Assembly: GCF_012910785.2 (NCBI RefSeq)
Contig: NZ_WTVH02000008.1
Span: 186,001-250,000 of the forward strand
Direction: 5' to 3'
Source: Aromatoleum buckelii
Lineage (GTDB): Bacteria > Pseudomonadota > Gammaproteobacteria > Burkholderiales > Rhodocyclaceae
Length of the DNA: 64,000 nucleotides
A program made the position numbers and the translations under genes. Under the pieces are notes generated by a model. That model saw nothing but the letters and a program-made list of their open reading frames with translations. It had not been told where the DNA came from and ran no database searches. Of the stretch, positions 899 through 20,990 are shown piece after piece. The stretch's first letter is position 1. Each line of letters starts with the position of its first letter.

Positions 899-1440
899 AT
901 CATCCTCCTGCCTGGGGTGGCGTCCGTCTGACTGGTGTCTCGCCCGCATGTCCATCCGGACGAGCATCCTGTCGATCCCTGTTCCGCACCGAGCGCGCCA
1001 AGTCCGGCCAGTTCAGCTGCGGCCGGGGATCGAGGTAAGCTTATGATCGATCGGCACCTTTCTAAGTTCCGAAGCACGCCCACGCGAGCAGCCAATGCCG
1101 GCGGTGGGCCTAGTGGCGGAGCAGTTCCACCCTACCGACTCCCGCCTGGAGACTGTGGAACGTGATCGAGTAAGACGGGCCTGTCGCTGAAATCTTGCGG
1201 TCCGAATCCGGCCAGGCACGGGCCGGAAATGGCTGGAACGGGCAAGCCGTCAAGAACCTGACCCTTTGATGCGCATGGCGTCTCCGAGAGGGGGAACTGG
1301 AGACTGGTGAAGATCGTTTCGGTCACGTGCCCTCTGGGCATTCGTGTAATCGCGCCTGGCTAACACGGTTGCCCGCGAATGTACGAGGTATGCTTTCGCG
1401 ATACCCTCATTGGGGTAACCCGACAGCAGGACTCGCGCCC
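899..1440. other. 542-bp stretch with no recognisable gene
   Basis: It separates the divergently transcribed PRC-barrel gene and the helicase at 1441. Short open frames exist on both strands but none has protein-like composition or a ribosome site. It must hold both promoters, but I see no convincing -35/-10 pair. It has no recognisable IS ends. Confidence 0.5.
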
Positions 1441-4400
1441 ATGACCCTCCTTCCCGACGGCCTCTACGACCTGCTCGTCAACGAGCGCATCCGCGAACTC
1501 GCACTGGAACTGCGCGATGCCGGTCAGGCCGACGTCGAAAAGCTCACCGGGGCGGCGCGACGCCAGCGGCTCCTCGACATGCTTGCGCGGTTGCTGCCCG
1601 ACTTGCTCGACGACGCTGCCGAGGGAAAGGATGACAGCCGCCGCGAGCAGCGCGAACTCGCCCTGATCAACGGCTTGCTCGGGCAACTACGTGGTGGCGA
1701 CGTGCAAGCCGGCAACTGGACTGCGCCCGTCCTCGCGCTGCGCTCGATCTATCGTGGACAGCCTCGTCCGGCGCAGCCTCCGACCGGCGTGCTTGCACCC
1801 TGGCTGTTCACGGCCGGCCGGGCAGATCCGTCGCTGTTTGCGGAATTGCGCGCAGAGCTCGGTTCAACCGACCGCGTCGACATCGTCGTCAGCTTCATCA
1901 CGTGGAGCGGGCTGCGAAAACTCCTCGACGTGCTGGAATCCATCACCGCAGTCGGGGCGCAGGGCGAACCGCGCACGCGGCTGCGCATCATCACGACGAC
2001 CTACACCGGCGCGACCGAAGCTCGCGCCGTCGAGACGCTCGCGGCCCTGCCCGGCGTCGAGCTGCGCGTCTCGCTCGACGGGCGCCGCAGCCGTCTGCAC
2101 GCAAAGGCGTGGCTCTTCCACCGCGCGACCGGCTTCGGCACCGCCTTCGTTGGCAGCGCGAACCTGTCGGCCGCGGCATTGCTGGGCGGCGTCGAATGGA
2201 CGGCGAAATTCACGCAGGCGGGGCAGACCGACCTCTTCGCCGCAGCCGAGGCGCACTTCGAGACACTGTGGAACGACCCGGAATTCCAGCGCTTCGACCC
2301 GCAGGACGACCAGCACCGCCTCGAACTGCGCCGCGCGCTGCAGCAGGCCAGGGGTACAAGCTTCGAGCCGATCGCGACGCCGACCTGGTTCGACCTTCAG
2401 CCCAAGAGCTACCAGCAGGCGATGCTTGACCGCCTCGCCGCCGAGCGGCGCCACGGCCGCACGCGCAACCTCGTCGTCGCGGCCACCGGCACCGGCAAGA
2501 CCGTCGTCGCTGCCTTCGACTACAAGCGCCTGTGCGAGCAGCAGGGCGGAAAGCCGCGTCTACTATTCGTCGCGCATCGCGTCGAACTGCTGCGCCAGGC
2601 CATCGAAACCTACCGGCAGGTGCTGCGCGCGCCGTCCTTCGGCGAACTCCTCGCGGACGGCAGCCAGCCCGAGAGCAGCGAACACCTCTTCGCGACCATC
2701 ATGTCGGTTGCCGCGCGTGATCTCCTCGCGAGCCACGGCGCGGACTACTGGAACACCGTCGTCATCGACGAATGTCACCACCTGCCGGCGAGCCAGTTCG
2801 ACGCCTTCGCCACCGCGATCCGCCCGCGCTTCCTGCTGGGCCTCACCGCGACGCCCGAGCGCGCGGACGGACGCTCGGTGCTTCAATACTTCGACGCACG
2901 CCCTGACGGCAGTCCGGCCGTCGAGCTGCGCCTGTGGGACGCGCTCGACCAGCAGCTCCTTGCGCCCTTCGAGTACTACGCGAGCACCGACAGCACCGAC
3001 CTCTCCGGGGTCCGCTGGAACCAGCCCGGCGAACTCGCGCAGCTCGCCAACGTCATCAGCGGCAACGACGCGCGCGCCCGTCTGGTGATCCACGCGATCG
3101 AGCAATACGTCGCCGACCATGGCGCCATACGCGCGATCGCGTTCTGCGTCGATATCGCCCATGCGAACTTCATGGCCGAACGGTTCACGCAGGCCGGCCT
3201 TCCCGCGCTCGCGATCACCAGCGCCACGCCGCGGGACGTGCGCGAACGCGCCCCGCAGGAGCTGGCCGCCGGCACGCTGAAAGTGCTGTGCACCGTCGAT
3301 CTCTACAACGAGGGCGTCGACATCCCGGAAGCCAACACCCTGCTGCTCCTGCGCCCGACGCAAAGCCCGGTCGTGTTCCAGCAGCAGCTCGGCCGCGGCC
3401 TGCGCCTCGCAGACGGCAAGGACAGCTGCCTCGTCCTCGACTTCGTCGGGCGGCTACAGAACGACTTCCGCTTCGACCTCCTCTACCGCGCGATCACCGG
3501 CCTCAACCGCCAGGAGCTCATCGAGGCCGTCGAACAGGGCTTCACGACACTGCCGCCCGGCTGCCACATCCAGTTCGACCGCGTCGCGCGCGAGCGCGTG
3601 CTGAGCGGCCTGCGCCAGATCAGCAACCAGAACTGGCGCCGCCTCACTGCCGAACTGCGCTACTACGCCACGACCCGCCGCGGTGCGCCGCTGACCCTCG
3701 CCGAATTCGTGCGCGACCAATGCCTGGGCCTCGAAGACCTCTACGACGGCAAGCCCGGCTGGACCGCGCTCTGCCGCGTCGCTGGCCTCGAACACGCCGC
3801 GCCTGACCCCGACGAGACCTATCTCGGCAAGCACCTCGGCGCGCTGCTGCACGTCGATGACCCCGAGCACCTGCTGATCCTGCGCCGCGTCGCCGAAGAC
3901 CCCGCGGCGCTCCTCGCGCAGTGCGCTCACCTTGCCCCAGCTGAGCAACGGCGCATTCAGATGCTCGCCTACCAAATTTTCAGCGACCGCAGCGCCCTGA
4001 TGGATGTGCCCGCCTTCCTCGCCCGCATGGTTGCCAATCCGGCAATATGCCGCGAACTCGCCCAGCTCGCGACCTGCCTCGACGAACGCGCCGACCTCGA
4101 CCCGCAGCCCCTCCCCGGCGCCCCCACCGCCTGGCCGCTGACCCTGCACGCCGCCTACCAGATCCGCGAAATCCTCACCGCCGTCGGCTGGCTCAGCCCC
4201 GAGCGCCGCGCCCCCTTCCAGGCCGGCGTGCTGGCACTACCCGAACACAAGACCGAACTCCTGTTCGTCACCCTCGACAAGCGCGACGGCTTCAACGAAC
4301 GCATCGCCTACCACGACTATGCGATCAGCCCGGAGCTCTTCCACTGGCAGTCGCAGCGCACCGCCGGCCCGGACACCGCAGCCGGGAGTCGCTATTGCGA

Positions 4401-4584
4401 GTCGCCGGGGAATGGATGGCAGTTCCAGCTGTTCGTGCGGGAGGCGCGCGGGCAGGCGTATCGGGCCTTGGGGCCGGTGAGGCTGGAGCGGTGTGAGGGG
4501 GATCGGCCGCTGTCGATTACGTGGCGGCTGGAGCGGGCGCTGCCGGTGGGGGTGTTCAGGCGGTATAGCGTGTTGCGGACTTGA
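1441..4584 (+). CDS. PLD-type nuclease / SF2 helicase / DUF3427 fusion protein
   Basis: 1047 residues from ATG 1441. An open frame reaches back to 1327, but the residues before 1441 look non-coding. Domains in order: an N-terminal helical region; a phospholipase-D-like domain (about 120-300) with the HxK motif HAKAWLF near residue 219 followed by GSANLS; an SF2 helicase core with Walker A ATGTGKT (about 348), DECHH (about 444), LLGLTATPERADG and a C-terminal lobe ending QQQLGRGLRLADGK; and a C-terminal DUF3427-type domain with TLDKRDGFNERIAYHDYAIS, FHWQSQ and SITWRLE. The family is generally viewed as a DNA-directed restriction or repair enzyme; its substrate is not established. The PLD domain shows one HKD half, so a dimer or partner may be needed for cleavage. 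It converges on the RecQ-UvrD / two-gene group and appears intact, unlike them. Confidence 0.88.
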   Translation: MTLLPDGLYDLLVNERIRELALELRDAGQADVEKLTGAARRQRLLDMLARLLPDLLDDAAEGKDDSRREQRELALINGLLGQLRGGDVQAGNWTAPVLALRSIYRGQPRPAQPPTGVLAPWLFTAGRADPSLFAELRAELGSTDRVDIVVSFITWSGLRKLLDVLESITAVGAQGEPRTRLRIITTTYTGATEARAVETLAALPGVELRVSLDGRRSRLHAKAWLFHRATGFGTAFVGSANLSAAALLGGVEWTAKFTQAGQTDLFAAAEAHFETLWNDPEFQRFDPQDDQHRLELRRALQQARGTSFEPIATPTWFDLQPKSYQQAMLDRLAAERRHGRTRNLVVAATGTGKTVVAAFDYKRLCEQQGGKPRLLFVAHRVELLRQAIETYRQVLRAPSFGELLADGSQPESSEHLFATIMSVAARDLLASHGADYWNTVVIDECHHLPASQFDAFATAIRPRFLLGLTATPERADGRSVLQYFDARPDGSPAVELRLWDALDQQLLAPFEYYASTDSTDLSGVRWNQPGELAQLANVISGNDARARLVIHAIEQYVADHGAIRAIAFCVDIAHANFMAERFTQAGLPALAITSATPRDVRERAPQELAAGTLKVLCTVDLYNEGVDIPEANTLLLLRPTQSPVVFQQQLGRGLRLADGKDSCLVLDFVGRLQNDFRFDLLYRAITGLNRQELIEAVEQGFTTLPPGCHIQFDRVARERVLSGLRQISNQNWRRLTAELRYYATTRRGAPLTLAEFVRDQCLGLEDLYDGKPGWTALCRVAGLEHAAPDPDETYLGKHLGALLHVDDPEHLLILRRVAEDPAALLAQCAHLAPAEQRRIQMLAYQIFSDRSALMDVPAFLARMVANPAICRELAQLATCLDERADLDPQPLPGAPTAWPLTLHAAYQIREILTAVGWLSPERRAPFQAGVLALPEHKTELLFVTLDKRDGFNERIAYHDYAISPELFHWQSQRTAGPDTAAGSRYCESPGNGWQFQLFVREARGQAYRALGPVRLERCEGDRPLSITWRLERALPVGVFRRYSVLRT

Positions 4585-4681: not shown

Positions 4682-5095
4682 CTATGCCTCGTTTGGAGCA
4701 GAGGGATGCAAACAGCCTCGCGCAACTGCAAGCCTTTTGAGTTTTTTCGCAATCAACTTCTGTTTCTGAGATGTGTGCGCACTATAGTCAGCCAATGCGT
4801 GCGCCGGATTTTCCACCGCCGTATCGGTGCCCACCACGGGATCAGAGTGGCAGCTGATCATTTCACTTTCGAATTCCCCAACGGACAATCCGAAGACTGC
4901 GGCCGACGCGCGACCATTGGAAGTGTAAAGACCGTGGGATTGCGCAGCTGTCGTCAATGCCGACCTGTCGACGGAAAGCTTGTTGAGGTCCTTTTCTGAC
5001 GGCCGGAAGCGATCGCTGGAAGGCTCGCCGTTCTCAAGGAAATTTGGATGAATCTGTCGAAACAAGACTTCTGACGAATTCGTTAGCTTGCTCAT
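4682..5095 (-). CDS. conserved protein of unknown function, second gene of a two-gene pair
   Basis: 137 residues. Its ATG overlaps the stop of the upstream gene by 4 bases (ATGA, 5092-5095), so the two are translationally coupled. No known domain is recognised. The N-terminal half carries a patterned segment (FRQIHPNFLENGEPSSDRF, then PSEKDLNKLSVDR). The middle has FGLSVGEFE and the end is basic (KKLKRLAVARG). From memory, small proteins of this pattern recur behind a larger partner in accessory regions of other bacteria, but I cannot name a function. No signal peptide or membrane segment is visible, so it is probably cytosolic. It lies downstream of an IS3 insertion in its partner, so its expression may be reduced. 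Confidence 0.7.
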   Translation of the reverse strand: MSKLTNSSEVLFRQIHPNFLENGEPSSDRFRPSEKDLNKLSVDRSALTTAAQSHGLYTSNGRASAAVFGLSVGEFESEMISCHSDPVVGTDTAVENPAHALADYSAHTSQKQKLIAKKLKRLAVARGCLHPSAPNEA

Positions 5096-5398
5096 TGGCG
5101 CCCCACACGATCGTCGAATTCTTTCATGAAATCATCTTCGATTTCCCCGAAACGCACTGGATCCATTTCTCCTGTTCCGTCTATTTGTATGCCATACATC
5201 TCTACAGAACCATCCGACGCGAAGGCAACAGAAAAATCCCAGTCATTGATTTCGAATTCAAAAAGGATTCCGCCTTCTTCTGTTGGGAATATTCGATACG
5301 CTCCGCACAGAGATGGACGCTTCGACAAGAATCTTTCTGCGGCGCAGACTGCTGGTCCCTGAATAGCTCGAGCGCCCTCGCCATTCCAGTCATCACTC
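5092..5398 (-). pseudogene. 3' part of IS3-interrupted gene, first gene of the two-gene pair
   Basis: This is the C-terminal part of the protein whose N-terminal part lies at 6605-7441. Joining the two pieces with one ACTC copy gives an uninterrupted frame reading IKGLSDDWNGEGARAI, and a full protein of about 379 residues. The C-terminal domain (DDWNGEGARAIQGP, then YRIFPTEEGG, FEFEINDWDFSVAF and GSVEMYGIQI) resembles a small alpha/beta domain that I recall from other uncharacterised accessory proteins. In the present state this piece has no start of its own apart from readthrough of the IS3 transposase frame, which runs into the insertion edge. Confidence 0.8.
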
Positions 5399-5424
5399 TG
5401 ACCTGCCTGATTTCTTCGGACCAC

Positions 5425-6279
5425 TCATTCCTGGAGAACGGCTTCCGGGTGGGTGGTTGAAATACACAGGCGCTTGAACTCTGCCGGAGTTCTCCGGCCG
5501 AGGCTCGAGTGCGGGCGAACGTCATTGTAATGTCGGCGCCATTGCTCGATGACGACCTTGGCTTCGACGCGGTTGCGAAACCATTCCATCGACAGGCACT
5601 CGTCGCGGAATTTTCCGTTGAAGCTCTCCGTCGTGCCGTTCTGCCACGGCTTGCCCGGATCGATCAGCGCCAGATCGAGATTCTCCCCCGCGGCCCATTT
5701 CAACAGGGCCTTGGAGACGAATTCCGGCCCGTTGTCCGAACGCAGCACCTTCGGTGCGCCGTGGACTGTGACCAGTTGCGACAGCACCTCGATCACGCGC
5801 CCCGAACGAATCGAGCCGGCGACATCGATCGCAAGGCACTCGCGGGTGAACTCGTCGATCACCGTCAGACACTTGAGCTGCTGTCCGTTGGCGCAGGCGT
5901 CGAACACGAAATCATAGGCCCAGACCTGTCGCGCCCCCGTCGGTGGCCGCGGTCGCGGCCGCGAGGCGGCAATCCGCTTCCTGCATCGCTTCCTGGGCAC
6001 TTGCAGCCCGGCTTGCCGCCACAGTCGCCACGCTCGGTCGCTGCTCATCGGATATCCCTGACGTTCGAGAAACACCTGAATGCGGCGGTAGCCATAACGG
6101 GGATATTGGGCCGACAGCAGGCCCATCGCGGCCAGCGCCGGGGCATCCTTGCGCTGCATTCTCGACTCATAGCGCATGGCTGAGCGCGCCACCGACATCA
6201 GCGCACACGCCCGGCGTTCCGACAGCCCCCGCCCTCGGGCGTACGCAACCTGTCGGCGACGGGCGGGTGCGCTCACCAT
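5425..6279 (-). CDS. IS3-family transposase OrfB (DDE integrase catalytic domain)
   Basis: 284 residues. The N-terminal helix-turn-helix-like part (LSERRACALMSVARSAMRYE, then YPRYGYRRIQVFLERQG) is followed by the rve catalytic core. The first Asp lies in VWAYDFVFDACANG, the second in VLRSDNGPEFVS, and Glu in GTTESFNGKFRDECL; the end is RPHSSLGRRTPAEF. The start ATG 6279 overlaps the end of orfA, just after a run of seven A on the coding strand. The normal product in this family is an OrfAB fusion made by -1 frameshifting at such a run. The frame stops at 5425, near the IS end. Confidence 0.93.
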   Translation of the reverse strand: MVSAPARRRQVAYARGRGLSERRACALMSVARSAMRYESRMQRKDAPALAAMGLLSAQYPRYGYRRIQVFLERQGYPMSSDRAWRLWRQAGLQVPRKRCRKRIAASRPRPRPPTGARQVWAYDFVFDACANGQQLKCLTVIDEFTRECLAIDVAGSIRSGRVIEVLSQLVTVHGAPKVLRSDNGPEFVSKALLKWAAGENLDLALIDPGKPWQNGTTESFNGKFRDECLSMEWFRNRVEAKVVIEQWRRHYNDVRPHSSLGRRTPAEFKRLCISTTHPEAVLQE

Positions 6280-6536
6280 TTTTTTGCCGCGATCTCCTTC
6301 ATGACCTCGATCTCGAGGTCACGCTCGGCCAGCAACTTCTTCAGCCGGGCGTTCTCCTGTTCGAGCTGGCGCAGCCGCTTGACCTCGTCGGCGTCCATCG
6401 TCCCGAAGTGCTTGCGCCACGTGTAGATCGTCTGCTCGCTCACTCCGTGCTTCTTCGCCACTTCGGCGACCGGCGCCTTGTCCGCTTCGCGCAGGATCGT
6501 CACCATCTGGGCTTCCGTGAATCGGCTCTTTCGCAT
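6273..6536 (-). CDS. IS3-family transposase OrfA (helix-turn-helix)
   Basis: 87 residues. It begins MRKSRFTEAQMVTILREAD, the usual start of IS3 OrfA proteins, with an HTH (VAEVAKKHGVSEQTIYTWRK) and a C-terminal leucine-zipper-like helix (RLRQLEQENARLKKLLAERD). It binds the IS ends and forms the N-terminal part of the OrfAB transposase. The coding strand ends GCA AAA AAA TGG TGA. The A-run is a slippery site that would move ribosomes into orfB at the overlapping ATG. An AAGAGGAAGTC ribosome site stands before the start. Confidence 0.93.
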   Translation of the reverse strand: MRKSRFTEAQMVTILREADKAPVAEVAKKHGVSEQTIYTWRKHFGTMDADEVKRLRQLEQENARLKKLLAERDLEIEVMKEIAAKKW

Positions 6537-6604
6537 GACTTCCTCTTCTTGTTGGAAGCCATCCTCTCAAGTTTCACGTGGTCCGAAAATCCCCAGGCAG
6601 GTCA

Positions 6605-7441
6605 ACTCAGCCCTTTGATTTCGAACAATCGACTTCTGCACCTCTCCAATTCTTCGCCAATTCCTTGATCAATCAATGCAACATCAAAAGCTTCTATGAC
6701 GCTACGGAACCTATCAGCGTTATCCAGCTCTATCTGAAGGTCAAACTGAACAACCGCATTTATATTTCCATCGAACTCATTGACGACGCGTTCGGCGTCC
6801 AACTGAATTCGAATGTTTCCATGTTCAATGGTTAGAACTTCTATATAGCCGCCCGCTGCATCGGCGTTTACCACTGCGCCGAGAAGAGTCCCAGTACCTT
6901 CGAACCTCGCTTGATAAGTCTCGCGAACTCTCGTAATCAGCTTCTTACGGCGGTAGGTATCGAGGTAGATGACATTTCCGTCTGCGCCCGCTGTGCCTAA
7001 AAATTCGATGCGCTCACTCTCCCGAAGGCCAGAACCGAGCTTGTTCAGTGCGCGAACGTGTTCTGATGACAGAGATTTAGGAAATCGGTCGTTTCCGGCC
7101 CCGTCAATAAGATCAACAACATCACGGAATGACGCCTTGACGACGTCGTACAGTTCGTCAGCAAATCCCGGGAGGTAAGTTTGGGCGGTACCTCTGTTCC
7201 AATCCAGGCTTGGAACCGCGCTGCCTTCTTCAATGGACACCAGATCAAACGAAAGGCTCTTGTCAAAACCCTTCGGAACCCTTTGGCGATCTGCATTTAG
7301 CGCGCGCCACTCGTCCTTGGCGAACGCGGCGAGGAGATCTCGAAATGCCGGAAGATCGGAGAGGACGTCCACTGGTAACCGCGCGCCGTCGAAACGCAAC
7401 CCGACATATCTCAGCTTGAAGATCGTGGCATCGTCGGTCAT
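6605..7441 (-). pseudogene. 5' part of IS3-interrupted gene, first gene of the two-gene pair
   Basis: The N-terminal 279 residues of an about 379-residue protein. As it stands the frame stops at a TGA (6602-6604) formed at the IS edge. I chose ATG 7441; a TTG at 7456 is also possible and neither has a clear ribosome site. No known domain is recognised. The N-terminus (IFKLRYVGLRFDGARLPVDV) and RVPKGFDKSLSFDLVSIEEG, the segment IYLDTYRRKKLITRV and a beta-rich part (GYIEVLTIEHGNIRIQLDAE) suggest a mixed alpha/beta protein without membrane segments. It lies 277 bp behind the UvrD end of the helicase fusion, on the same strand, and directly before its coupled partner. Confidence 0.75.
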
Positions 7442-7718
7442 AACCGTTTTACGCAATCACCCAGTTGGATTTCGCACCGATCAGCAGTGCTTATAGATTA
7501 GGCTGAAAGCATAGCAAATTTGGCTTGCGTGTTACAGGACGACGTGGACTCGTCGGTTCGTCACCCCAGCCTACTCACCGCCGACAATGAGCGCAGGGGC
7601 AAGACTACCCGGCGAGACGTTGGAGAGGGAGGCCCCTTTGGGGGGCCGTTCAACGACCACAAACTGCGGATAGGTGCACACCCAGCTTAGGGTAGAAACA
7701 CCATTCGCCTTCTCCGCA

Positions 7719-10334
7719 TCACCCCGGCACGTATTCAATTTCCGGCAGCACCAACTCCCAAGACTGACACTGCAGCCCCTCCTCACCTTCCCTCACGCCA
7801 CGCACCAGCACCGCCGCGACCCGCACCGCAAGGATCGCCCCCTCCGGCGGCTGAAACTTCGACGACATCCGGCCAACCGCCACACCCGACGCATCAGTGA
7901 TCTCCCACCCCGCGCGCCCATCGCTCCGCGGCCGCAGTGCCAGCGGGCTACCAACATCAAGCGCCGCCAGCGCACGGTGAATCGGCGCCGTCGGCGAGAA
8001 ACGCCCCGGCCACGACAGCACAACCTTCTCCGGATCGGCACACCAGATCCGATGCGCGACACCCGGCTCCGGGGGCAACGCCTCCGGCCGCGAGCGCAGC
8101 ACCAGCCCGTCCAGATCGCGCACGAACGGATGCTGCCCGCCAACCGCCTCGCACAGCGTCAGCGACTTCCGCGCCCGCGTCATCGCGACATAGAACAAGC
8201 GCCGCTCGTCATCCCCACGTCCCTGCCAGCCACCGCCGTCGAGGATCAGCACGTGGTCGAATTCCAGCCCCTTGGCGCGGTGCGCAGTCATGAGGACCAG
8301 CGGCGCGTTGGGGCGGGCGTCGACGGTGGGTTTGCCGATGGCGCCGAAGTCGTACAGGGACTCGATGAGGTCGTCGACGACGAGCTCGCGGCCCGGGGCG
8401 GCGGATTCGGCATCGACGATGAACTGCGCGAGCGCGGCACGGTAGGGGTGTTCGTTGAGGCCGTTGGGCGGGGCGTGGAAGCGGCGGCGGAACCAGTGTG
8501 ACAGGACGCCGGCGCGCACCAGCACGCGGCGACGGCGGGCGTTGCTGCGCTGGCCGCGCAGGAGCGTGACGAGTGCGTTGCCTTCGCGCGTCTGGTGCAG
8601 GCTGACCTGACCGGCGTCGCGTTGCATGCGGACCGGGATGCCGCGCACGCGGCACAGGGCGGCCATCGGTTCGAGGTCTTCCCAGCGGCGGGCGATTACG
8701 GCGAAGCGGCCCCATTGGCCTGCTGCGCCGGTTGCGCCATGCGTCAGCAGATCGTGGAGGCGCTGCAATTCGTCGAGCGCGACCTGCGCTTCCTGCTGCG
8801 GGTTGCGCGGCACTTCGAGCACATTCACGCGACCTTCGGTGAGCGGATCGAGCGCGGCATGCTCGCCGCCGTCGGGCTGGTCGCGGCGGGCATGGTTCAC
8901 GCGGATCGCCTGTCCGCCCTTCATGCGCTCGCGGGCGCGTTCGATGACGCGGTTGGCGCAGTGGATGATGTGCTTGGTCGAGCGGTAGTTCTCGATCAAC
9001 GCATAGCGGCGCGCGGCGTAGTCGGTTTCGAACTGGCGGATGAAGCGCACGCTTGCGCCGTCGAAGGCGTAGATGTTCTGATCGTCGTCGCCAACCACCA
9101 TCAGCGAGACGCGGTCTTCCTCGGTCTGCAGCGTGCGGCCGGCGACCGCGCTGATGAGCTCGTAGTGGTCGCCGTTGATGTCCTGGTATTCGTCGACGAG
9201 CAGGAAGCGGAGGCCGGAGAGGAGGCGGTCGCGCAGAATGGAAGGCCCGACGCCGTCAGCCACGCTCGGCTCCTGCTCGGCGGCGCGCAGGCGGCGGGTG
9301 GCCTGGCGGATGACGTCGCTGAAGTCGACCGCCTCGCCGCGTTCGATCGCCACGGCGTAGCTGGTGCCGGTGAGCCGCATCGCGAGCCCGTGCAGTGTCT
9401 GCACCGCGACGCCGGCCGCATCCGTGCCGACGAGCGCCCACAGGCGGCGACGGATTTCGTTGGCGGCGGAGCGGTTGTAGGCGAGCACCATGATCGCTTC
9501 GGGCAGCACCATGCATTCGCGCAGCAGCCACGCGACGCGGTGCACGATGACCTTGGTCTTGCCGGCGCCCGGGCCGGCGAGCACGAGATGGTTGCCTTCG
9601 AGGGGCGCTGCGACGATGGCCTGCTGCTCCGGGTTGGCGAGATCGGTGAGGATGCGCCGGTGCGCGGCCTCGGTGGTCGCCATCTCCAGCACGTCCTTGC
9701 GCCCGGCGAAGTAGCGGCGCACGAACTCGGCGCGGTCGAGGCTGAAGTAATCGACGATGAAGGCCATCGCCGCCTGGATCTTGCGCACCGCGAGCTTGGC
9801 GTACTCGGCCATCACATGCACCTGGACGATCTTGTCCTTGTAGTGCAGCGCGAGCTCGGCGTAGTCGGACTTCTTGAACTGGCGGCGGCGCGCCTCGGCG
9901 TTGAGGGCTATGCTCATCGCGGAACGAAACACTGCCTTGCCGCGCGCCAGATGCAGCACCTCGTTGGCATCGAGGTAGAGGAGCGCCGCGGAGAGGGCGA
10001 CGTCCCATTTGTCGATTTCGAGATCAGCGAGCGTCGTGTCGGCCTGCAACGCGGCTTCGAGTTCGCCTTGCTTGCAGGTGACGAGCAGCGTGTTGCCCTG
10101 GCGGCGGCGCTGGAACTCCTGCACCAGCGCGCGGGCGAGGCGCATGCGGCGTTCGCGGATGGTCTCGATGTCCTTCCACGGGCGCAGGAGCTTCAGGTAG
10201 CGGCTGTCCGCGGTCTGCGGACGAAGGGCGAAGAAACCACGTTGTTCGACGCCATCGCCGAAGGGCTCGGCGAAGGATTTCAGCAGGCGGGTGAGCTTGT
10301 CCGGGTCGAAGTCGACCTGCGCGTCGCGCCGCAA
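7719..10334 (-). pseudogene. UvrD-like SF1 helicase half of an IS-split exonuclease-RecQ-UvrD fusion
   Basis: This is the C-terminal half of the gene that begins at 14288. All SF1A motifs are present: Walker A AGPGAGKT, LLVDEYQDINGDH, VVGDDDQNIYAFDG, LIENYRST, LMTAHRAKGLEFDHV and RRLFYVAMTRARKSL. A start of its own (TTG 10334) would begin exactly in the target duplication, so independent expression is doubtful. With the IS and one 8-bp repeat removed, the RecQ half reads ...LCDTLRR and continues RDAQVDFDPDKL in frame, giving one 1720-residue protein. The last 100 residues after the helicase are unrecognised. It may still be transcribed from the element, but translation is uncertain. Confidence 0.88.
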
Positions 10335-10370
10335 GGGGGTGTCAGGATTTCTGTGTGTGAGGCGTGAAGA

Positions 10371-10416
10371 GACTGTTCCAACGGGGCCGCCTGCAGGCGG
10401 CCCCGTTGGAACAGTC
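10371..10416. repeat. 46-bp perfect palindrome inside the IS256 left end
   Basis: Both halves are exact reverse complements with no loop (23 bp each, centred on CTGCAG at 10393/10394). It starts GACTGTTCCAACGGGGCCGC. It lies 36 bases inside the left inverted repeat and 10 bases beyond the transposase stop. It could act as a terminator for the transposase or shield against outside transcription, but it lacks a clear T-run. Confidence 0.9.
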
Positions 10417-10426
10417 GGTAGTCATT

Positions 10427-11680
10427 TTAGCCCCGGCCTGCTTCAAAGCGCTCGGCGTAAAGGATGGCGAACTGGTTCATCGCCTCTTTCCAGTCTTTGG
10501 CTGCCCGTCCCCAGTCGGCGGTGATGTTGCGCAGGGCGAGCCAGATCAGCTTGGTTGCCGCCTCGTCGCTCGGGAAGTGCCCCCGCGTCTTGATGATCTT
10601 GCGCAGCCGCGCGTTGATGCTCTCGATGGCATTGGTGGTGTAAATCACCCGGCGGATCGGGGACGGAAAGGCAAAGAACGGGATCACCCGATCCCACGCC
10701 CGGCGCCAGGCGGCGGCCACGGGGGGAAACTTCTCGCCCCACGGGCCTTGGGCGAATGCGTCGAGTTCGGCCAGCGCCGCTTCGGCACTCGGGGCGGTGT
10801 AGATCGGCCGGATTGCCGCCGCCAGCGCCTTGCGATCTTTCCAACTCGCGTAGTCGAGGCTGTTGCGGATCAGATGCACGATGCAGGTTTGCAGCGTGGT
10901 CGCCGGAAACACCGCCTCCAGCGCTTCGGGCATGCCCTTCAGGCCGTCGGTGACCGCAATCAGGATGTCGGTCACGCCGCGCGTCTTGAGGTCATTGAAG
11001 ACCTTCATCCAGAATTTTGCGCCCTCGGTGTTCTCGATCCACAGCCCCAGGATGTCGCGTGTGCCGTCGGGCAGCACCCCGAGCGCCAGGTAGATCGCCT
11101 TGTTGCGGACCACGGCGTCCTCGCGGATCTTGACCCGAAGGGCATCGAAAAACACCACCGGGTACATCGGCTCCAACGGGCGGGATTGCCAGGCAGTGAC
11201 TTCACCCATCACGGCATCGGTGACCGAGCTGATGAACTCGGGCGACACGTCGGTGCCGTATTGCTCGCCCAGAAATCCCTGGATCTCGCGGATCGTCATT
11301 CCGCGCGCATACATGGCGACGATCTTGTCGTCGAAGCCGGTAAAACGCCGCTCGTGCTTCGGGATGAGCACCGGCTCGAAACTGCCGGCGCGGTCACGCG
11401 GCACTTCGATCCGCAGCGGCCCGTCTTCGGTAAGCACCGTCTTGCCGCTCGCGCCGTTGCGGTGATTGCTGCTCTCGACCGGCTTGTCAGCGCCCGGCAG
11501 GTAGCCGAGGTGATGACTGAGTTCGGCGCCGAGTGCCCGTTCGATCAGCGCCTTCTTGAACGCCATCGCGGCCGCGTTGACCGCCTCGGCGCTCATTGGA
11601 CCGCCGACGAACTGGTCAATCAGTTCTTTCGGAATGTTGGGCAGCGCCGCCGGTTGCTTCTTGCTCGTCTTGCTTGGCAT
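10427..11680 (-). CDS. IS256-family transposase (mutator type)
   Basis: 417 residues, ATG 11680 preceded by AGGAGCATGT. The mutator-type DDE signature is visible: FFDALRVKIREDAVV, then TDGLKGMPEALEAVFPATT with TCIVHLIRNSL, and TTNAIESINARLRKIIKTRG. The upstream part has RFTGFDDKIVAMYARGMTIR, typical for the family. It appears intact, so the element is probably still mobile or recently was. Confidence 0.95.
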   Translation of the reverse strand: MPSKTSKKQPAALPNIPKELIDQFVGGPMSAEAVNAAAMAFKKALIERALGAELSHHLGYLPGADKPVESSNHRNGASGKTVLTEDGPLRIEVPRDRAGSFEPVLIPKHERRFTGFDDKIVAMYARGMTIREIQGFLGEQYGTDVSPEFISSVTDAVMGEVTAWQSRPLEPMYPVVFFDALRVKIREDAVVRNKAIYLALGVLPDGTRDILGLWIENTEGAKFWMKVFNDLKTRGVTDILIAVTDGLKGMPEALEAVFPATTLQTCIVHLIRNSLDYASWKDRKALAAAIRPIYTAPSAEAALAELDAFAQGPWGEKFPPVAAAWRRAWDRVIPFFAFPSPIRRVIYTTNAIESINARLRKIIKTRGHFPSDEAATKLIWLALRNITADWGRAAKDWKEAMNQFAILYAERFEAGRG

Positions 11681-11733
11681 ACATGCTCCTTGCTGACATG
11701 TTATGCCTCACACACAAAATTTCTGACAGGCTC

Positions 11734-14288
11734 CGCCGCAACGTGTCGCACAACCGGCGCACATTCAAGATCTGCCAGCCTTCCTGGTCGGCGTCGGGCG
11801 CCTCTTCGCGCAGGTTCTTGAGCAGGGCATCTTCGATGCGTGCGAGTTCGTCGAGGCGCTGCGCCGTGTCGGGATCGCGATAGAAGGTGACCCCGATCTC
11901 GGTGTCATTCGACAGCAGCTTCCAGCGGTCGAGTTCGCGCAGCATGTGCTGCAGCGTGCGCGAATCCTTACCGGTCGCGAGCATCAGCTCGTCAGTCGAT
12001 AGGCCTTGGTCATCGTCAGCCTGAATCAGGATCGACAAGATGCGCACGTAGGGCTCGATATCGGCGTCCGGCCCCAGCTTCTTCCTCAGAAGCGCCCGCG
12101 CCTCCTCCTCGTTCGCGACCAGCAGGCTGCCGGGGAAGACGCGGGTGTGATTCTCGTGGCGTTCGAGCAGGCGTGCTTCCTCAAGCCACGCGACGGCGAT
12201 GCGCACCTTGGTGTCGGCATCGCTCGCGTCCGGATCGATGCGGTGCGCGTCGGGGATTTCGAGCAGGATCTCGCCGCTCGTCACCACGACCTCGCCCTCG
12301 GTGCGGTCCTTGCGCTCGATCGCGCGCAGCGCCTTCAGGATGGCGCCGATGTCGTGCTGCGTGAGCCGCGAGTTTTTCAGCAGGCGGAACTGGACGTCGA
12401 GGTCGGCGTCGTCGTAGAGCAGGATGCAGCGCGCAGCCGCCTGGTCACGCCCCGCGCGGCCCGCTTCCTGCAGGTAGTTCTCCAGCGAGCCGGGCGTGTC
12501 GAGGTGGATCACTAGGCGCACGTCGGGCTTATCGACGCCCATGCCGAAAGCGTTGGTTGCAGCGATGACGCGCAACGTGCCGGCAAGGAAGGCTTCCTGC
12601 ACCGCGCGCTTGTCGGCGGGCAGCATGCCGCCGTGGAAATAACCACAGTCGAGGCCGGCGTCCTTCAGGAATTGCGCGACCTCCTCGACCGTCTTCTGCC
12701 GCGCGCAGAACACGATCGCGCCACCTTCCTCGCGCAGGGCGTCCTGCAGCAGACGCAGAGTCTCAGCGTACTTGGCGGCAGCCGGCACCGAGCGGACCTC
12801 ATAGATGAGGTTCTCGCGACTCACCCCGCCTTCGAGCCGGTCGAGCACGACACCGAGGCGCTTCTCGAAGTGCTGGCAGATGTCGTCGACCACGTCCGGC
12901 TTGGCAGTCGCGGTGAAGCCGAACACCGGCGAGGGCTTGTCCTTCTGGCGCGCCTTGATGAAGCGCGACACATAGAGGTAGTCGGGACGGAAGTCGTGCC
13001 CCCACTTCGACAGGCAGTGCGCCTCGTCGAACACCCAGGCGCCGATCTCGCGATGCATCAGCGCATTGGCGAAGGCGGTGCTGCGGAACTGCTCCGGGGC
13101 GACGAAGATGAGCCCGAGGTCCCCCAGGCGCAGCTTGTCGAGCATCACCCGCCGCTCCATCGGGTTGAGCAGGCTGTTGAGGTAGCCCGCGCACGTGATG
13201 CCGCGCGCCTCCAGATTGTCGACCTGGTCCTTCATCAACGACTGCAGCGGCGAGATCACGACTGTCAGGCTGCTGTTGCGGTAGTAGCGAGCCAGCGCCG
13301 GCAGCTGGAAACACAGCGACTTGCCGCCACCCGTGGGCAGGATCGCGAGCGTCGGCCGGCCCGCGAAACCGTTCTCGACGATGGCCTGCTGCAGTGAGCG
13401 CCCCTCCGCGGTCGTCGGCGTGCTGCGAAAACGCGTGATGCCCGGGAAGTAGCGCGGCAACAGCGTTTCGAGGTCGTGCTGCTCGCGGCACCACGCGCAG
13501 GCGGGGTCGGGGCAAGGCACGTCGCGCAGCGTCGCGATCGCTTCGCGCGCCTTGGGGAAACTGTGGCTCACCCACGGCGGCAGCACGGAATTGCCGCCTG
13601 CGACGCGCAGCCACGCGAGGGCGTATGCAAGCGGCTTGTGCCACGCGGGATCGGGCAGGCAGTGTTCGATGATCCAGCGCTGCCCGGTGATGCAGCCCTT
13701 GCCGTCTGTCGCCCGCTGCCATGCCGCGGCGGCCTCCGCCAACGACGGTCGTAGCGCGCGCCGGAGGGTTGCGAAGAAGTTCGCCACGCCCTTGCCGTTC
13801 TCCGGTGCCAGCAGGTAATGCAGGCACAGCGCCTCGTCCGGGTGCTCGGCGACGCGTTGCTGCAGGGCCTCGTTCTGGTCATTGAACAGCTCGTAGGCGA
13901 GCTCCGCGTCGCGCACCGGGTCGTTGCGCGTCGTCGTGCACAGCTTGTAGTCCTTCACCAGCCGGTGATAGGGGTTCTGCGGGAAGGCGACCGGCGAGAG
14001 TTCGAGCGTATCGATGAGCGGCAGGCGGTGCAGCCCAAGCTCGGGATGCAGCGCCGCCAGCGCAGGTTGGTCGAAGGCGACGACGTTGTGGCCGAGCACG
14101 AAGGCGGCCCCTTCGGTCAGGGCGTCGAGTCGACGCACCAGATCCGGTGCCTTGCCCGAAAGCCGCAGCCGTGCATCGAGATCGGGACGAAAGGCGCCCA
14201 GCTCGCGCAGGACCATGCGGTCCTGGCGGGCGGTTTCGATGTCAAGACATAGGCACCGCGCGCGCGGCGCAGCGGGCGGACCGCGCAT
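11734..14288 (-). pseudogene. exonuclease-RecQ half of an IS-split RecQ-UvrD fusion helicase
   Basis: The N-terminal half of a 1720-residue fusion. At present the frame runs 39 codons into the IS256 element and stops at 11616. Start ATG 14288. Residues 1-140 look like a DEDD-type 3'-5' exonuclease: CLCLDIET near 14-20, FVLGHNVVAFDQPAL, and RNDPVRDAELAYELF. The RecQ core has LPTGGGKSLCFQLPAL (about 318), VFDEAHCLSKWGHDF (about 418), VFGFTATAKPDV and ATNAFGMGVDKPDV with YLQEAGRAGRD (about 608). Winged-helix-like segments follow (SADTKVRIAVAWLEEARLLE region and LSTDELMLATGKDSRTLQ). The truncated product could still be an active exonuclease-RecQ protein. It is the first gene of a minus-strand group with the two-gene pair. 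Confidence 0.88.
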
Positions 14289-14491
14289 GGAATTCGATTC
14301 GATTAAAAACAAGCGCCCGAATTGTATCCGGATGCACCCAGCTCCTACCGTGCATGAGACGCAGATACCTCGGGCGGAAGGGAAAGCGCGGCGGCGTGCG
14401 AGTCATCGACTACTTACGAGCGAAGTCTCCTGCTTCATCCTAATGTCTGAAGTGAAATAGGCCGGCCCCGGGTGGCGTCCCGCCGATGCGA

Positions 14492-15324: not shown

Positions 15325-15372
15325 ATGCCCAAAACACGCGCTATGATGTGTATAAATATACAGTCATCTTGA
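15325..15372 (+). CDS. possible 15-codon leader peptide upstream of lexA
   Basis: ATG 15325 is preceded by TCTGGAGGTAGCTC, a full GGAGGT ribosome site at ideal spacing. The frame ([15 protein letters not shown]) ends at TGA 15370-15372, 55 bases before lexA. It spans the LexA box. It may be a leader peptide or the surviving start of a lost gene. If transcription starts at or inside the LexA box it is not transcribed with lexA. Confidence 0.3.
15348..15363 (+). promoter_or_regulatory. LexA-binding site (SOS box) of the lexA-imuAB-dnaE2 cassette
   Basis: GTGTATAAATATACAG matches the proteobacterial consensus CTGTATATATATACAG at 14 of 16 positions. It stands 64 bases before the lexA start and is the only such site seen in the gap, so it probably makes the whole cassette DNA-damage inducible and lexA self-regulated. 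Confidence 0.8.
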
Positions 15373-16751: not shown

Positions 16752-17938
16752 TCCTGCCCGATCTGCCGCTGCAGGTCTTCACCCGCGGCGTCGAGGACGC
16801 GGGCCTCTTGGCGGTCGTCGAGCCGCAGCCGCGCGCCACAATCGTCGCCGCGACAGCGGCCGCCCGCGTGCGCGGCGTCGAACGGCACCAAGGGGTCGCC
16901 GGCGCGCTGGTGGTGGTGCCCGAGCTGGCCTTGCGCGAGCGCGATCCGGCGCTTGAAACGGCGACGCTGGCCGAGCTTGCGACGTGGGCCGGACGCTTCA
17001 CGCCGTGTGTGAGCCTCGATCCGCCCGATGCAGTGCTGCTCGAAGCGAGCGCGAGCCTGCGGCTGTTCGGCGGCATCGACGCGCTTGCGCAGCGCATCGC
17101 GAAAGCCGCGCTGCCGCTCGGCCTAACCACGACGCTTGCCGCCGCGCCGACGCCGCTGGCGGCACGCTGGCTCGCGCGGGCGCGCCCGGGCACGCTCGTC
17201 CGCCCCTCGGAGGGCTGGGCGCACGCGCTCGATGCGCTGCCGATTGAACTGCTCGCCGATGGGGCGCCCGTGCCCGCTGCCACGCTCGAGCTGCTGCGTG
17301 GCGTCGGCGTGCGCCGCATCGGCGAGCTCCCCCGCGTGCCGCGTGACGGGCTCGCACGCCGCGACGCAAGCGTCGTCACCGACACCGTTGCACGCGCCCG
17401 CGGCCGCGACCCCGATCCGCGCCCGCGCTTCGTCCCTGCCGAGCGCTTCGCCTCGCGCCTCGTGCTGCCGGCAAGCGTCGCGCACACCGAACCGTTGCGC
17501 TTTGCCGCGGGGCGGCTCTTCTCGAACCTCGCCGCATGGCTGGCCGCGCGTCGGGCCGGGCTCGATTGCTGCCGGCTGCATCTCGAACACGACCGCGCGC
17601 CCGCGACCGTCGTCGAAATCGTCACCGGCCGTCCGCAGCGCGATGCGGCGCGCTTTGTGCAGCTCGCGTGCGAGCATCTGGCCGCGCTCACGCTGCCGGC
17701 GCCAGTCGAGGCGCTGCGCCTGACGGCCGACGCGCCGGTCGCACTGCCGGCGTGCACGCCGGATCTGTTCGACGGCGAAAGCGATGCGGCGCGCGAGGCC
17801 GCGCTGCGCCTGCTCGATCGACTGCGCGCGCGGCTCGGCAGGGACGCGGTGCATACGGTGCTGCCCGTTGCCGATCATCGTCCCGAACGCGCCGGGCGCG
17901 GCCGAGGCCGGCTACACGGCGCTCGCGATCACCGATGA
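16733..17938 (+). CDS. imuB: ImuB, catalytically inactive Y-family polymerase homologue, C-terminally shortened
   Basis: 401 residues from ATG 16733 (MLWFALILPDLPLQVF). The Y-family layout is present (VVEPQPRATIVAATAAARVRG, DPPDAVLLEASASLRLFGG, then palm/finger and little-finger segments) but without the catalytic acidic pair, as expected for ImuB. A probable beta-clamp-binding motif is TPDLFDG near residue 340. The frame then reads VLPVADHRPERA, a familiar ImuB segment, followed abruptly by an unrelated arginine-rich tail and stop. Full ImuB proteins run on for roughly 80-100 more residues. The break coincides with the start of dnaE2 homology, so I infer a deletion across the gene junction. 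Function may be impaired, as the C-terminus is said to contact the partners. Confidence 0.85.
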   Translation: MLWFALILPDLPLQVFTRGVEDAGLLAVVEPQPRATIVAATAAARVRGVERHQGVAGALVVVPELALRERDPALETATLAELATWAGRFTPCVSLDPPDAVLLEASASLRLFGGIDALAQRIAKAALPLGLTTTLAAAPTPLAARWLARARPGTLVRPSEGWAHALDALPIELLADGAPVPAATLELLRGVGVRRIGELPRVPRDGLARRDASVVTDTVARARGRDPDPRPRFVPAERFASRLVLPASVAHTEPLRFAAGRLFSNLAAWLAARRAGLDCCRLHLEHDRAPATVVEIVTGRPQRDAARFVQLACEHLAALTLPAPVEALRLTADAPVALPACTPDLFDGESDAAREAALRLLDRLRARLGRDAVHTVLPVADHRPERAGRGRGRLHGARDHR

Positions 17939-20900
17939 GTGCTCGCTCGCGGGCGTCGTGCGCGCGCATCAACAGTCGCGGCGCCTCGCGCGGCCGCTGA
18001 AGCTCGTGATCGGCAGCGAGCTGCGGCTGGCCGACGGGCTGCGCATCGTGCTGCTCGCGACCGACCGTGCCGCGTACGGGCGACTCGCGCGATTGATCAC
18101 GATCGGCCGGCGCGCGGCGACAAAAGGCCGTTACCAGCTGACTCGCGCCGATCTCGATCGCGGGATCCCCGGCTGTCTGGCGCTGGTCGTGCCGCCCGAC
18201 GACGGCGTCCTCGATCGCGAGGCGCTCGTTGCCGACGCGCGCTGGGTCGGCGAACGATTTCCGGACGCCGTGTGGCTTGCGGTTGAGCTCGCCTGCGGGC
18301 CGGACGATGGGCGCCGGCTCGAGGCGTTACTGGCAATTGCTTCGGCCGCCGGCCTGCCCCCGGTCGCGGCGACCGGGGCGCTGATGCACGACCCGTCTCG
18401 TCGGGCGCTCGCCGACGTGCTGGCGGCGCTGCGGCTGCGGGTCACGATCGCCGAAGCGGGCCGGGCGCTTGCGCCGAACGCCGAGCGCGCGCTGCACGAG
18501 CGCGCCGTGCTCGCGCGCCGCTACCCGGCCGAACTTCTCGCCGAGACGCTGCGGATCGCTTCGCGCTGCCATTTTCGGCTCGACGAACTGCGCTACGAAT
18601 ATCCGGCCGAGCTCGTGCCCGACGGCGAGACGCCTGCAAGCTGGCTGCGACGCCTCGTCGAGGACGGGCTGCGCTGGCGCTACGGCCGCCCGCAGGACGA
18701 CCCCGCGCCGCCGAAAGTGCGCGCGCAGGTCGAGCACGAGCTTGCGCTGATCGCCGAGCTCGGCTTCGAAGCGTACTTTCTGACCGTCGAGGATCTCGTG
18801 CGCTTTGCGCGCGGCCGCGGCATCCTGTGCCAAGGGCGCGGTTCGGCGGCGAACTCGGTCGTCTGTTGGGCGCTCGGCATCACCGAAGTCGATCCCGAAC
18901 TCGGCATCATGCTCGTCGAGCGCTTCATCTCGAAAGAGCGCGACGAGCCGCCCGACATCGACGTCGATTTCGAGCACGAGCGGCGCGAGGAAGTCATCCA
19001 GTACGTCTATCGGAAGTACGGGCGCGAACGCGCCGCGCTCGCCGCCACCGTGATCCGCTACCGCGCGCGCAGCGCGCTGCGCGACGTCGGGCGCGCGCTC
19101 GGGCTGCCGCTCGGCCAGCTCGAACGGCTTGCGCGCGACCGCTTCTGGTTCGATGCCGGACGCATTCTGCCCGACCGGTTGCGAGAAGCCGGTTTCGATC
19201 CGGCGAGCCCCGGCGTGCAGCGCCTGGTGACGCTGACCGAAGCGCTCGTCGGCTTTCCGCGCCATCTGTCGCAGCATGTCGGCGGTTTCGTCATCGCGCG
19301 CGGCCGGCTCGACGAGCTCGTGCCGGTCGAAAACGCGGCGATGCCCGAGCGCACCGTGATCCAGTGGGACAAGGACGACCTTGACGCGTTGGGGCTGCTG
19401 AAGATCGATGTGCTCGCGCTCGGGATGCTGTCGGCGCTGCGGCGCAGCCTTGCGCTGGTCTCGACGTGGCGCGCCCGCCCGTTCACCCTTGCCGACATTC
19501 CGCGCGAGGCGCCCGAGGTCTATCGGATGCTATCGGAAGCCGATTCGATCGGCGTGTTCCAGATCGAATCGCGCGCACAGATGACGATGCTGCCGCGCCT
19601 GAAGCCGGCGCGCTTCTACGATCTCGTCGTGCAGGTCGCGATCGTGCGCCCCGGCCCGATCCAGGGCGGCATGGTCCACCCGTACCTCGAGGCGCGCGCG
19701 CGGATCGAACGCGACGAGCCGGTTTCGTATCCGCTCCCGCAACGCCTGAACGCGGACGCGGATCCCACCTCCCAACCGCAGCCCGACGGCGTGCGCCGGG
19801 TGCTCGAACGCACGCTCGGCGTGCCGATCTTCCAGGAGCAGGTCATGCAGCTCGCGGTCGTCGCGGCGGGTTTCACGCCGGGCGAGGCCGACCAGCTGCG
19901 CCGCGCGATGGGCGCATTCCGTCGCCACGGCGAGCTCGAGCGCTACCGTGCGAAACTCCTCGCGGGCATGGCGGCGCGCGGCTACCACGCCGAGTTCGCC
20001 GAGCGGCTGTGCGACCAGATCGAAGGCTTCGGCAGCTACGGCTTTCCCGAGTCACATGCCGCGAGCTTCGCGCTGCTCGTGTATTGCTCGGCGTGGTTGA
20101 AGTGCTTCGAGCCGGCCGCGTTCCTGTGCGGGCTGCTGAACAGCCAGCCGATGGGTTTTTACGCGCCGTCGCAGCTGATCCAGGACGCGCGGCGCCACGG
20201 CGTCGTCGTGCTCGGCGCGGAAGTGACCGCGAGCGACTGGGACTGCACGCTCGAGGCGCTGCCGGACGCATCGCCCAGCGCCGCTCCCGCAGTACGGCTC
20301 GGGTTGCGGCTGGTCAAGGGGTTCGGCCGCGAGGCCGCGATGCGGATTGTCGCCGCGCGCGCCGAACGCCCCTTTCCGGACGTCGACGAGCTTGCGCTGC
20401 GCGCGCGCCTCGACGCGGCCGCGCTCAAGCGGCTCGCGGTGGCCGGTGCGCTCGAGCGTCTTGCCGGCCATCGGCGCCAGGCATTGTGGCAGGCCGCAGC
20501 CGGCCACGCGCCCGAAGGCGTGCTGCGCGGCGCGCGCATCGCGGAGCCGCGCGCCGAGCTCGTGGCGCCATCCGAGGCCCAGGAACTGGTTGCCGACTAC
20601 GCGCGGCTCGGTTTCACGCTCGGCCGCCATCCGCTGGCGCTGCTGCGCGCAACGCTCACGACCCTGCGCTTCGTGACCGCGGCCGAAATCCGCGATTGCC
20701 CGGACCGCAAGCTCGCGCGCATCGCCGGCCTCGTGACATGCCGTCAGCGCCCCAGCACGGCCAAAGGCACGCTGTTTCTCACCGTCGAGGACGAGACGGG
20801 TCTCGCGAACGTCATCGTGCAGGCGGCGCTCGTCGAACGGCAGCGGCGCGAAGTGCTCGGCGCGCGCCTGCTCGGCGTGTTCGGACAGATTCGCCGCGAC

Positions 20901-20990
20901 GGCAAAGTCGTGCACCTGCTCGCACAACGCCTGGTCGATCACTCGGCACTGCTCGGTGCGCTCGATGCGCGCAGCCGGGATTTTCAATAA
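17784..20990 (+). CDS. dnaE2: DnaE2 (ImuC) error-prone DNA polymerase III alpha, N-terminus missing
   Basis: The frame is open from ATG 17784, but its first 40 codons are imuB sequence in another frame. DnaE2 homology begins at about 17902 (AAEAGYTALAITDECSLAG). The normal start, about 30 residues with the first PHP motif (a pattern like ELHCxSNFSFLxGAS), is absent. The rest looks complete: PHP remainder, polymerase core with CQGRGSAANSVVCW, PDIDVDFEHERREE and HVGGFVIARGRL, fingers with GSYGFPESHAASFALLVY, HhH and a C-terminal OB fold (ARIAGLVTCRQRP). In situ translation would need reinitiation, for example at GTG 17958 just after the imuB stop. It is the catalytic polymerase of the SOS mutasome. 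Confidence 0.85.
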   Translation: MRRARPRCACSIDCARGSAGTRCIRCCPLPIIVPNAPGAAEAGYTALAITDECSLAGVVRAHQQSRRLARPLKLVIGSELRLADGLRIVLLATDRAAYGRLARLITIGRRAATKGRYQLTRADLDRGIPGCLALVVPPDDGVLDREALVADARWVGERFPDAVWLAVELACGPDDGRRLEALLAIASAAGLPPVAATGALMHDPSRRALADVLAALRLRVTIAEAGRALAPNAERALHERAVLARRYPAELLAETLRIASRCHFRLDELRYEYPAELVPDGETPASWLRRLVEDGLRWRYGRPQDDPAPPKVRAQVEHELALIAELGFEAYFLTVEDLVRFARGRGILCQGRGSAANSVVCWALGITEVDPELGIMLVERFISKERDEPPDIDVDFEHERREEVIQYVYRKYGRERAALAATVIRYRARSALRDVGRALGLPLGQLERLARDRFWFDAGRILPDRLREAGFDPASPGVQRLVTLTEALVGFPRHLSQHVGGFVIARGRLDELVPVENAAMPERTVIQWDKDDLDALGLLKIDVLALGMLSALRRSLALVSTWRARPFTLADIPREAPEVYRMLSEADSIGVFQIESRAQMTMLPRLKPARFYDLVVQVAIVRPGPIQGGMVHPYLEARARIERDEPVSYPLPQRLNADADPTSQPQPDGVRRVLERTLGVPIFQEQVMQLAVVAAGFTPGEADQLRRAMGAFRRHGELERYRAKLLAGMAARGYHAEFAERLCDQIEGFGSYGFPESHAASFALLVYCSAWLKCFEPAAFLCGLLNSQPMGFYAPSQLIQDARRHGVVVLGAEVTASDWDCTLEALPDASPSAAPAVRLGLRLVKGFGREAAMRIVAARAERPFPDVDELALRARLDAAALKRLAVAGALERLAGHRRQALWQAAAGHAPEGVLRGARIAEPRAELVAPSEAQELVADYARLGFTLGRHPLALLRATLTTLRFVTAAEIRDCPDRKLARIAGLVTCRQRPSTAKGTLFLTVEDETGLANVIVQAALVERQRREVLGARLLGVFGQIRRDGKVVHLLAQRLVDHSALLGALDARSRDFQ

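Follow-up and report, generated by a model that had tools for sequence, protein, structure and literature searches.

Genomic organization of the split helicase gene

The window analyzed here, a stretch of 64,000 nucleotides from Aromatoleum buckelii, harbors on its minus strand a helicase gene that runs from an ATG at 14288 to a stop codon at 7719 and is interrupted by an insertion sequence (IS) of the IS256 family. The N-terminal part of the split gene (11735–14288, minus strand, starting with the ATG at 14288) encodes an exonuclease-like domain and a RecQ-type motor, and the C-terminal part (7719–10334, minus strand, including the stop) encodes a UvrD-type motor. The insert of 1399 bp (10335–11733, minus strand), with a transposase open reading frame (ORF) at 10427–11680, was assigned to the IS256 family by its transposase (NF033543, 397 bits; Pfam Transposase_mut). 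Its ends form imperfect terminal inverted repeats, and the 8-mer CGCCGCAA flanks it on both sides as a target duplication, with the first copy at 10327–10334 and the second at 11734–11741. The frame of the N-terminal part continues into the element and stops at 11616. In silico removal of the insert along with one copy of the 8-mer left a single frame open over 1729 codons, stop included; the remaining two frames of the joined sequence contained 38 and 20 stops. Counted from the ATG at 14288, the restored gene comprises 5163 bases, i.e., 1720 amino acids (aa) and a stop. The source genome carries three identical copies of the element, including the one in the helicase gene, and one 90% partial copy. 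Owing to these further copies, the element looks recently mobile.

Genome comparison showed that all six genus relatives with a whole gene (loci L184, L185, L186, L187, L188, and L190) lack the insert, the flanks being joined at 7–10 shared bases. The junction sequence is available for L025, L052, and L054, with L052 and L054 one base off the 8-mer; some loci represent the same genomes as others or as those of the family-level set (e.g., L052/L184, L054/L186, L062/L189, and L025/L190). The IS-free junctions in the six sister loci provide independent proof of the join and bear out the original prediction, made from the letters of the window, that an IS256 element with an exact 8-bp duplication had split one ancestral chain with a frame of 5163 bases. 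That two separate genes merely happened to give the single frame when joined is vanishingly improbable, as the same chain occurs without the IS in these loci and homologues are found in one frame across several phyla. This explanation was rejected, since the sister loci already refute it and no point in its support was found.

The ratio of nonsynonymous to synonymous substitutions (dN/dS) of the window gene pieces against sister genes was 0.07–0.15, which is similar to the 0.10–0.13 obtained for intact sister pairs over the whole gene, and hence there was no clear relaxation. These ratios indicate that the fusion gene has been under purifying selection until recently, and the A. buckelii copy looks to have been recently inactivated by IS256. 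Upstream of the ATG, the block CATCCGGATACAATT (14320–14334, minus strand) has a close match in L025, L052, L054, and L188; taking it as a promoter is a guess.

Domain architecture and motif conservation of the fusion protein

The predicted order of parts in the single chain is a DnaQ/DEDD-like domain, a Cys/His cluster, a RecQ-type superfamily 2 (SF2) motor, a linker, a UvrD-type superfamily 1 (SF1) motor, and a C-terminal module, all encoded on the minus strand. The N-terminal domain (residues 14–135; 13884–14249) remained below the cut-off for Pfam RNase_T and DNA_pol_B_exo1 in single-sequence searches (E 0.02–0.4, or no match). Its profile matched PDB chains named exodeoxyribonuclease III at E 0.005–0.03 and, when aligned with a profile of six DEDDh exonucleases encoded by the same genome, gave an hhalign probability of 94.9% (E 4.5e-8). 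The domain has the DEDD fold with its four metal-binding acidic residues: among 65 aligned rows, D16 and E18 were conserved in 59 with a gap in 6, and D73 and D127 were conserved in all 65. The His/Tyr general base of motif III is absent, its position (Asn122) being occupied by Asn in 59 rows, Ala in 3, and Ser in 3; Asn was also found there in 12 out of 12 diverse sequences. Hence, the domain is indicated to be a divergent DnaQ/DEDD fold whose nuclease activity is uncertain owing to the replacement of the usual His/Tyr by Asn, rarely by Ala or Ser. The prediction of exonuclease, RecQ, and UvrD in one chain is thereby upheld for both motors and for an exonuclease-like N-terminus, degradation being uncertain.

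The cluster C-x4-C-x2-C-x3-H (residues 259–271; 13476–13514), a possible zinc site, is conserved, and is absent from the relatives in Calothrix, Aliarcobacter, and Deinococcus. The RecQ-type SF2 motor (12444–13397; Pfam DEAD and Helicase_C) scored over the TIGR00614 subfamily cut-off (293.9 vs. 219.8 bits) and under the TIGR01389 equivalog cut-off (332 vs. 640.2 bits), with a weak hint of a winged helix after the core (E 0.03). The UvrD-type SF1 motor (8154–9635) scored over the Pfam UvrD-helicase cut-off (140.8 vs. 23 bits) and far under the equivalog cut-offs of UvrD, PcrA, and Rep (best 171 vs. 965 bits). The ATPase motifs of each motor were invariant in all 65 aligned rows, and RecQ motif VI deviates in the Deinococcus and Aliarcobacter relatives. 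The C-terminal module of ∼144 aa (7722–8153) showed no family match. HIRAN was tried as its identity and rejected, as hhalign gave 6.5% (0.2% and 0.7% in unrelated comparisons).

Distribution and inheritance of the fusion family

Using the UvrD half as query and E below 1e-60 as a match, the taxonomic family was found to have matches in 18 out of 121 genomes and 13 out of 68 genera, own genome included. In 15 of the 17 other carriers, both halves lay in one ORF of 1616–1927 aa (counted from the first ATG, GTG, or TTG), and in two the gene was cut by contig ends. One of these frames (G102) touches a contig end, and those of G079 and G018 lack the beginning of the exonuclease-like domain. In the collection of named species, the set consisted of the top 80 among 542 confirmed candidates, and the best 79 loci included 70 with a single frame (1696–1915 aa), 5 cut by contig ends, and 4 broken. 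The fusion is carried by 8 out of 17 genomes of the genus and, with two candidates scored per genome, by 15 out of 398 of the phylum, own genome included in both counts. Among plasmids, 208 records matched, 22 of them over 80% or more of the query at a single site. Relatives with 28–33% identity and the same part order were identified in Calothrix, Bacteroides, Aliarcobacter, and Deinococcus. These results indicate a widespread and patchy family whose relatives extend to Cyanobacteria, Bacteroidota, Campylobacterota, and Deinococcota. A single chain with both motors, considered rare in the original prediction, is in fact widespread; the full-length homologues of ∼1700 aa sought there do exist, and the two halves are not always separate genes, as single frames occur in several phyla.

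The distances of the two halves correlated with an r of 0.97 among 53 members, a value reached by 0 of 2000 permutations, suggesting that the halves were inherited together. The tree mixes phyla and scatters the members of the window's taxonomic family, as horizontal transfer would give. A resident RecQ over the equivalog cut-off was present in 14 of 15 carriers, and the fusion is hence an extra gene. A distant blastn search for E. coli carriers, with a segment of a Pseudomonas homologue as query, found none. In INPHARED, 24 phage records matched, none over more than 80% of the query, and the 20 matches listed covered the RecQ core only.

Broken copies were also observed. The Aromatoleum evansii KB740 copy (L062, 10001–12548) retains the start and the UvrD half with roughly residues 42–892 (RecQ half) deleted, and the gene is broken into two frames in L059, L091, and L104, where assembly error is possible. 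In a Nostoc plasmid copy (H27), a transposase is annotated between the UvrD and DEAD parts.

Mobility and local setting in Aromatoleum

The DNA homology between the window and its sisters in Aromatoleum starts and ends almost exactly at the fusion gene. A tRNA-Arg(CCG) gene is located 3–8 kb upstream on the same strand in four of seven sister stretches, and the window has this tRNA as well (about 93% across 77 bp), 11.2 kb upstream of the gene and again on the same strand. The tRNA match itself was used; tblastx of the tRNA flanks gave short scattered matches, which were not used. The remaining flanking DNA of the window is not common to the sisters, except for a homologue of type IV methyl-directed restriction enzymes (1327–4584, plus strand) placed tail-to-tail with the helicase gene. 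Such a homologue is present within 10 kb in six of the eight genus carriers, namely, the window, four sisters, and A. evansii with a 39% relative 6 kb away, and is absent in two. Its orientation varies: the two genes lie tail-to-tail in the window and in three sisters (L184, L186, and L187) and head-to-head in L188. This is hence a hotspot linkage and not an operon. The full-length gene was also found on four viral contigs, two of them beside clear phage genes, and a cut copy on one further contig. The fusion adjoins a CI-like repressor and a transposase on L212 and an O-like replication gene on L213, and the cut copy (L215) is on a contig with a portal gene. These settings indicate that the fusion gene moves horizontally via plasmids, prophage-like contigs, and a tRNA-side hotspot.

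Other features of the window include a candidate defense pair at 4682–7456, PDC-M32B (4682–5095) and PDC-M32A (6602–7456), with an IS3-family transposase ORF (5425–6279) in between. The PDC-M32A ORF covers 278 of 384 profile positions and may be shortened by the IS3 element. A further transposase (Pfam DDE_Tnp_1, DUF772) is located at 21291–22646, so that no fewer than three IS families occur in the region. At 36442–37224, the window contains a UvrD-type helicase gene other than the fusion (297 bits, 759-aa frame). A DnaE2-like polymerase gene (17784–20990; Pfam DNA_pol3_alpha) is possibly part of an SOS mutagenesis cassette, and a LexA-like palindrome is found at 15348–15363.

Linkage to defense genes

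An N6-methylase gene was present within 10 kb of the fusion in 4 of 15 carriers, with 0.37 expected (P 0.00035, from a uniform-placement simulation in which contig ends were ignored); near canonical recQ, inspection of the same lists gave 0 of 14. Neighbors were also sampled with PADLOC, taking 92 of 450 ORFs of at least 300 aa within 8 kb (those over 1300 aa being left out) and, as controls, 89 of 184 ORFs from 20 stretches of five genomes; ORFs were chosen by length, and false ORFs may be included. Restriction-type genes numbered at least 7 of 92 among the neighbors vs. 0 of 89 among the controls, or 1 of 89 counting an HmaB-type methylase (P 0.014 or 0.065), the counts being based on the matching families listed (25 of 55 and 25 of 27, respectively). 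The seven comprise three type IV, two type I R, and two type I M genes, some of them from Aromatoleum loci. Single loci showed a ThsA-like gene (L055), a type III methylase (L211), a type I restriction–modification operon, and, in one case, type I-D CRISPR genes near the fusion. No constant operon partner was found among 90 loci with flanks of unequal length, the commonest neighbor cluster spanning 8 of them. The defense genes that the original prediction proposed to look for are hence found beside part of the carriers, and many copies are without them.

Two further genes recur near the fusion: a NOV_C-domain gene (PADLOC PDC-S36) in four loci, L067 (17154–17702), L087, L117, and L118, and an AAA_14/DUF4143 protein (PADLOC PDC-S01) in L062 (12697–14142, just downstream), L074, and L080.

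Comparison with known helicases and nucleases

Of 10 annotated copies, eight bear the name "RecQ family ATP-dependent DNA helicase"; the names "ATP-dependent DNA helicase RecQ" and "UvrD-helicase domain-containing protein" are each used once. A full-text literature search, with bioRxiv and most subscription papers outside its scope, did not retrieve a description of the fusion, nor is it described in the portions consulted of PMC12525004, PMC5512222, and PMC12458937. We rate it as a variant that belongs with the known helicase–nuclease fusions. In Bacillus subtilis DinG, an N-terminal DEDD exonuclease domain and an SF2 helicase are present in one protein, as given in the consulted portion of PMC12525004. 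The fusion likewise has a nuclease-like domain and a helicase in one chain and showed a weak PDB profile match to a DinG chain (E 0.26); however, the DinG helicase is XPD-like, with neither RecQ nor a UvrD motor.

WRN has a DEDD-superfamily exonuclease domain followed by a RecQ motor. The fusion also has an exonuclease-like domain ahead of its RecQ motor but adds a UvrD motor and a C-terminal module and has Asn at the His/Tyr position of the DnaQ domain; its profile matched the helicase part of WRN only, not the WRN exonuclease. With bacterial RecQ (TIGR00614/TIGR01389), only the core is in common, the fusion having extra domains on both sides. It keeps all the SF1 UvrD-type ATPase motifs of UvrD, PcrA, and Rep, in a motor that forms its second half. 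The PADLOC models of Gabija GajB and Dpd DpdF matched the UvrD half (up to 155.8 bits) and the RecQ half (up to 361.2 bits), respectively, in the motor core only, and the NCBIfam DpdF cut-off was missed (173.5 vs. 550 bits). RecBCD, AddAB, and AdnAB combine more than one motor with a nuclease in one machine, and the likeness of the fusion to them in sequence is limited to weak matches of the UvrD half. The best reading is that the fusion resembles WRN plus UvrD more than it does RecBCD.

Proposed function of the fusion

The sequences show the architecture, conservation of the two motors and the four metal ligands, loss of the His/Tyr, purifying selection, mobility, and partial linkage to restriction genes; the substrate, the polarity within the fusion protein, the nuclease activity, and the anti-phage effect are inferred. 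In the reading that we favor, the fusion is a stand-alone accessory dual-motor helicase, carried as mobile-element cargo, that would protect its carrier against phage or plasmid DNA, to which we assign a probability of about 0.5. Carried as cargo of islands, plasmids, and prophages, the protein would load on branched or 3′-ended intermediates of invading or replicating foreign DNA. Both motors would unwind the duplex and strip proteins or strands, working either in tandem along one strand or, at a fork, moving apart on opposite strands. The exonuclease-like domain would grip the 3′ end, where it might trim slowly, cleave differently, or merely sense. More tentatively, and with the odds rather against it, it could be a single-protein immune machine against mobile DNA, in which SF2 and SF1 motors of the same nominal polarity work with a DnaQ-fold domain of a distinct "DEDD-Asn" class that senses the 3′ end or cleaves slowly. 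Prophages, plasmids, and tRNA-side islands would spread this machine, and its carriers would have inactivated it repeatedly.

Several observations weigh against a protective role. The type IV gene is also present in five of the nine genus non-carriers, and 11 of 15 carriers are without an N6-methylase gene within 10 kb. The neighbor test is weak (P 0.014 or 0.065), and its controls were drawn from five genomes of one family. The commonest neighbor cluster is histidine-kinase-like. Among 10 annotated plasmid regions, eight list no restriction or CRISPR gene in the PLSDB gene table, which is incomplete, and four of those eight list toxin–antitoxin-type genes. The linkage to defense genes can be passive, via shared hotspots.

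It is also possible, though we would not wager on it, that the fusion is an accessory enzyme of repair or replication restart, in which a WRN-like exonuclease–RecQ unit with a second motor resolves stalled forks, D-loops, or protein blocks for the mobile element or the host. The placement of the exonuclease ahead of RecQ is reminiscent of WRN, the helicase of which was matched by the profile (3.9e-72); copies adjoin plasmid replication or partition genes and, in L213, the phage O-like replication gene; and the DnaE2-like polymerase gene lies in the window. However, SOS control was considered and rejected: LexA-like boxes were not enriched upstream of the fusion (9 of 88 loci vs. 113 of 1760 random stretches), and within the window they numbered 5 vs. 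11.4 expected. The patchy occurrence of the gene beside a resident RecQ and its linkage to restriction genes also argue against repair. An end-processing machine similar to RecBCD or AddAB, with rapid unwinding and degradation, is improbable, even though two motors and a nuclease-like domain share one chain and the UvrD half is weakly similar to RecB and AddA profiles. The RecQ and UvrD families both move 3′–5′, whereas RecBCD has motors of opposite polarity and a nuclease of another fold; the description of the fusion in the original prediction as "like RecBCD in logic" is hence not supported. Furthermore, no RecB-type nuclease domain was matched by Pfam in either half or in the scanned fragments, and the His/Tyr residue is replaced in all 65 rows.

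Significance

The family places a WRN-like exonuclease–RecQ module together with a UvrD motor in distant phyla, hidden under generic annotation. If the fusion is a stand-alone defense enzyme, bacterial immunity would gain a double-motor architecture; if it is a repair enzyme, it would offer a bacterial system for studying the coordination of exonuclease, RecQ, and UvrD activities. With its conserved Asn in place of the catalytic His/Tyr, the family raises a direct question on the chemistry of the DnaQ fold. In A. buckelii, the window shows a defense-type island undergoing inactivation by insertion sequences.

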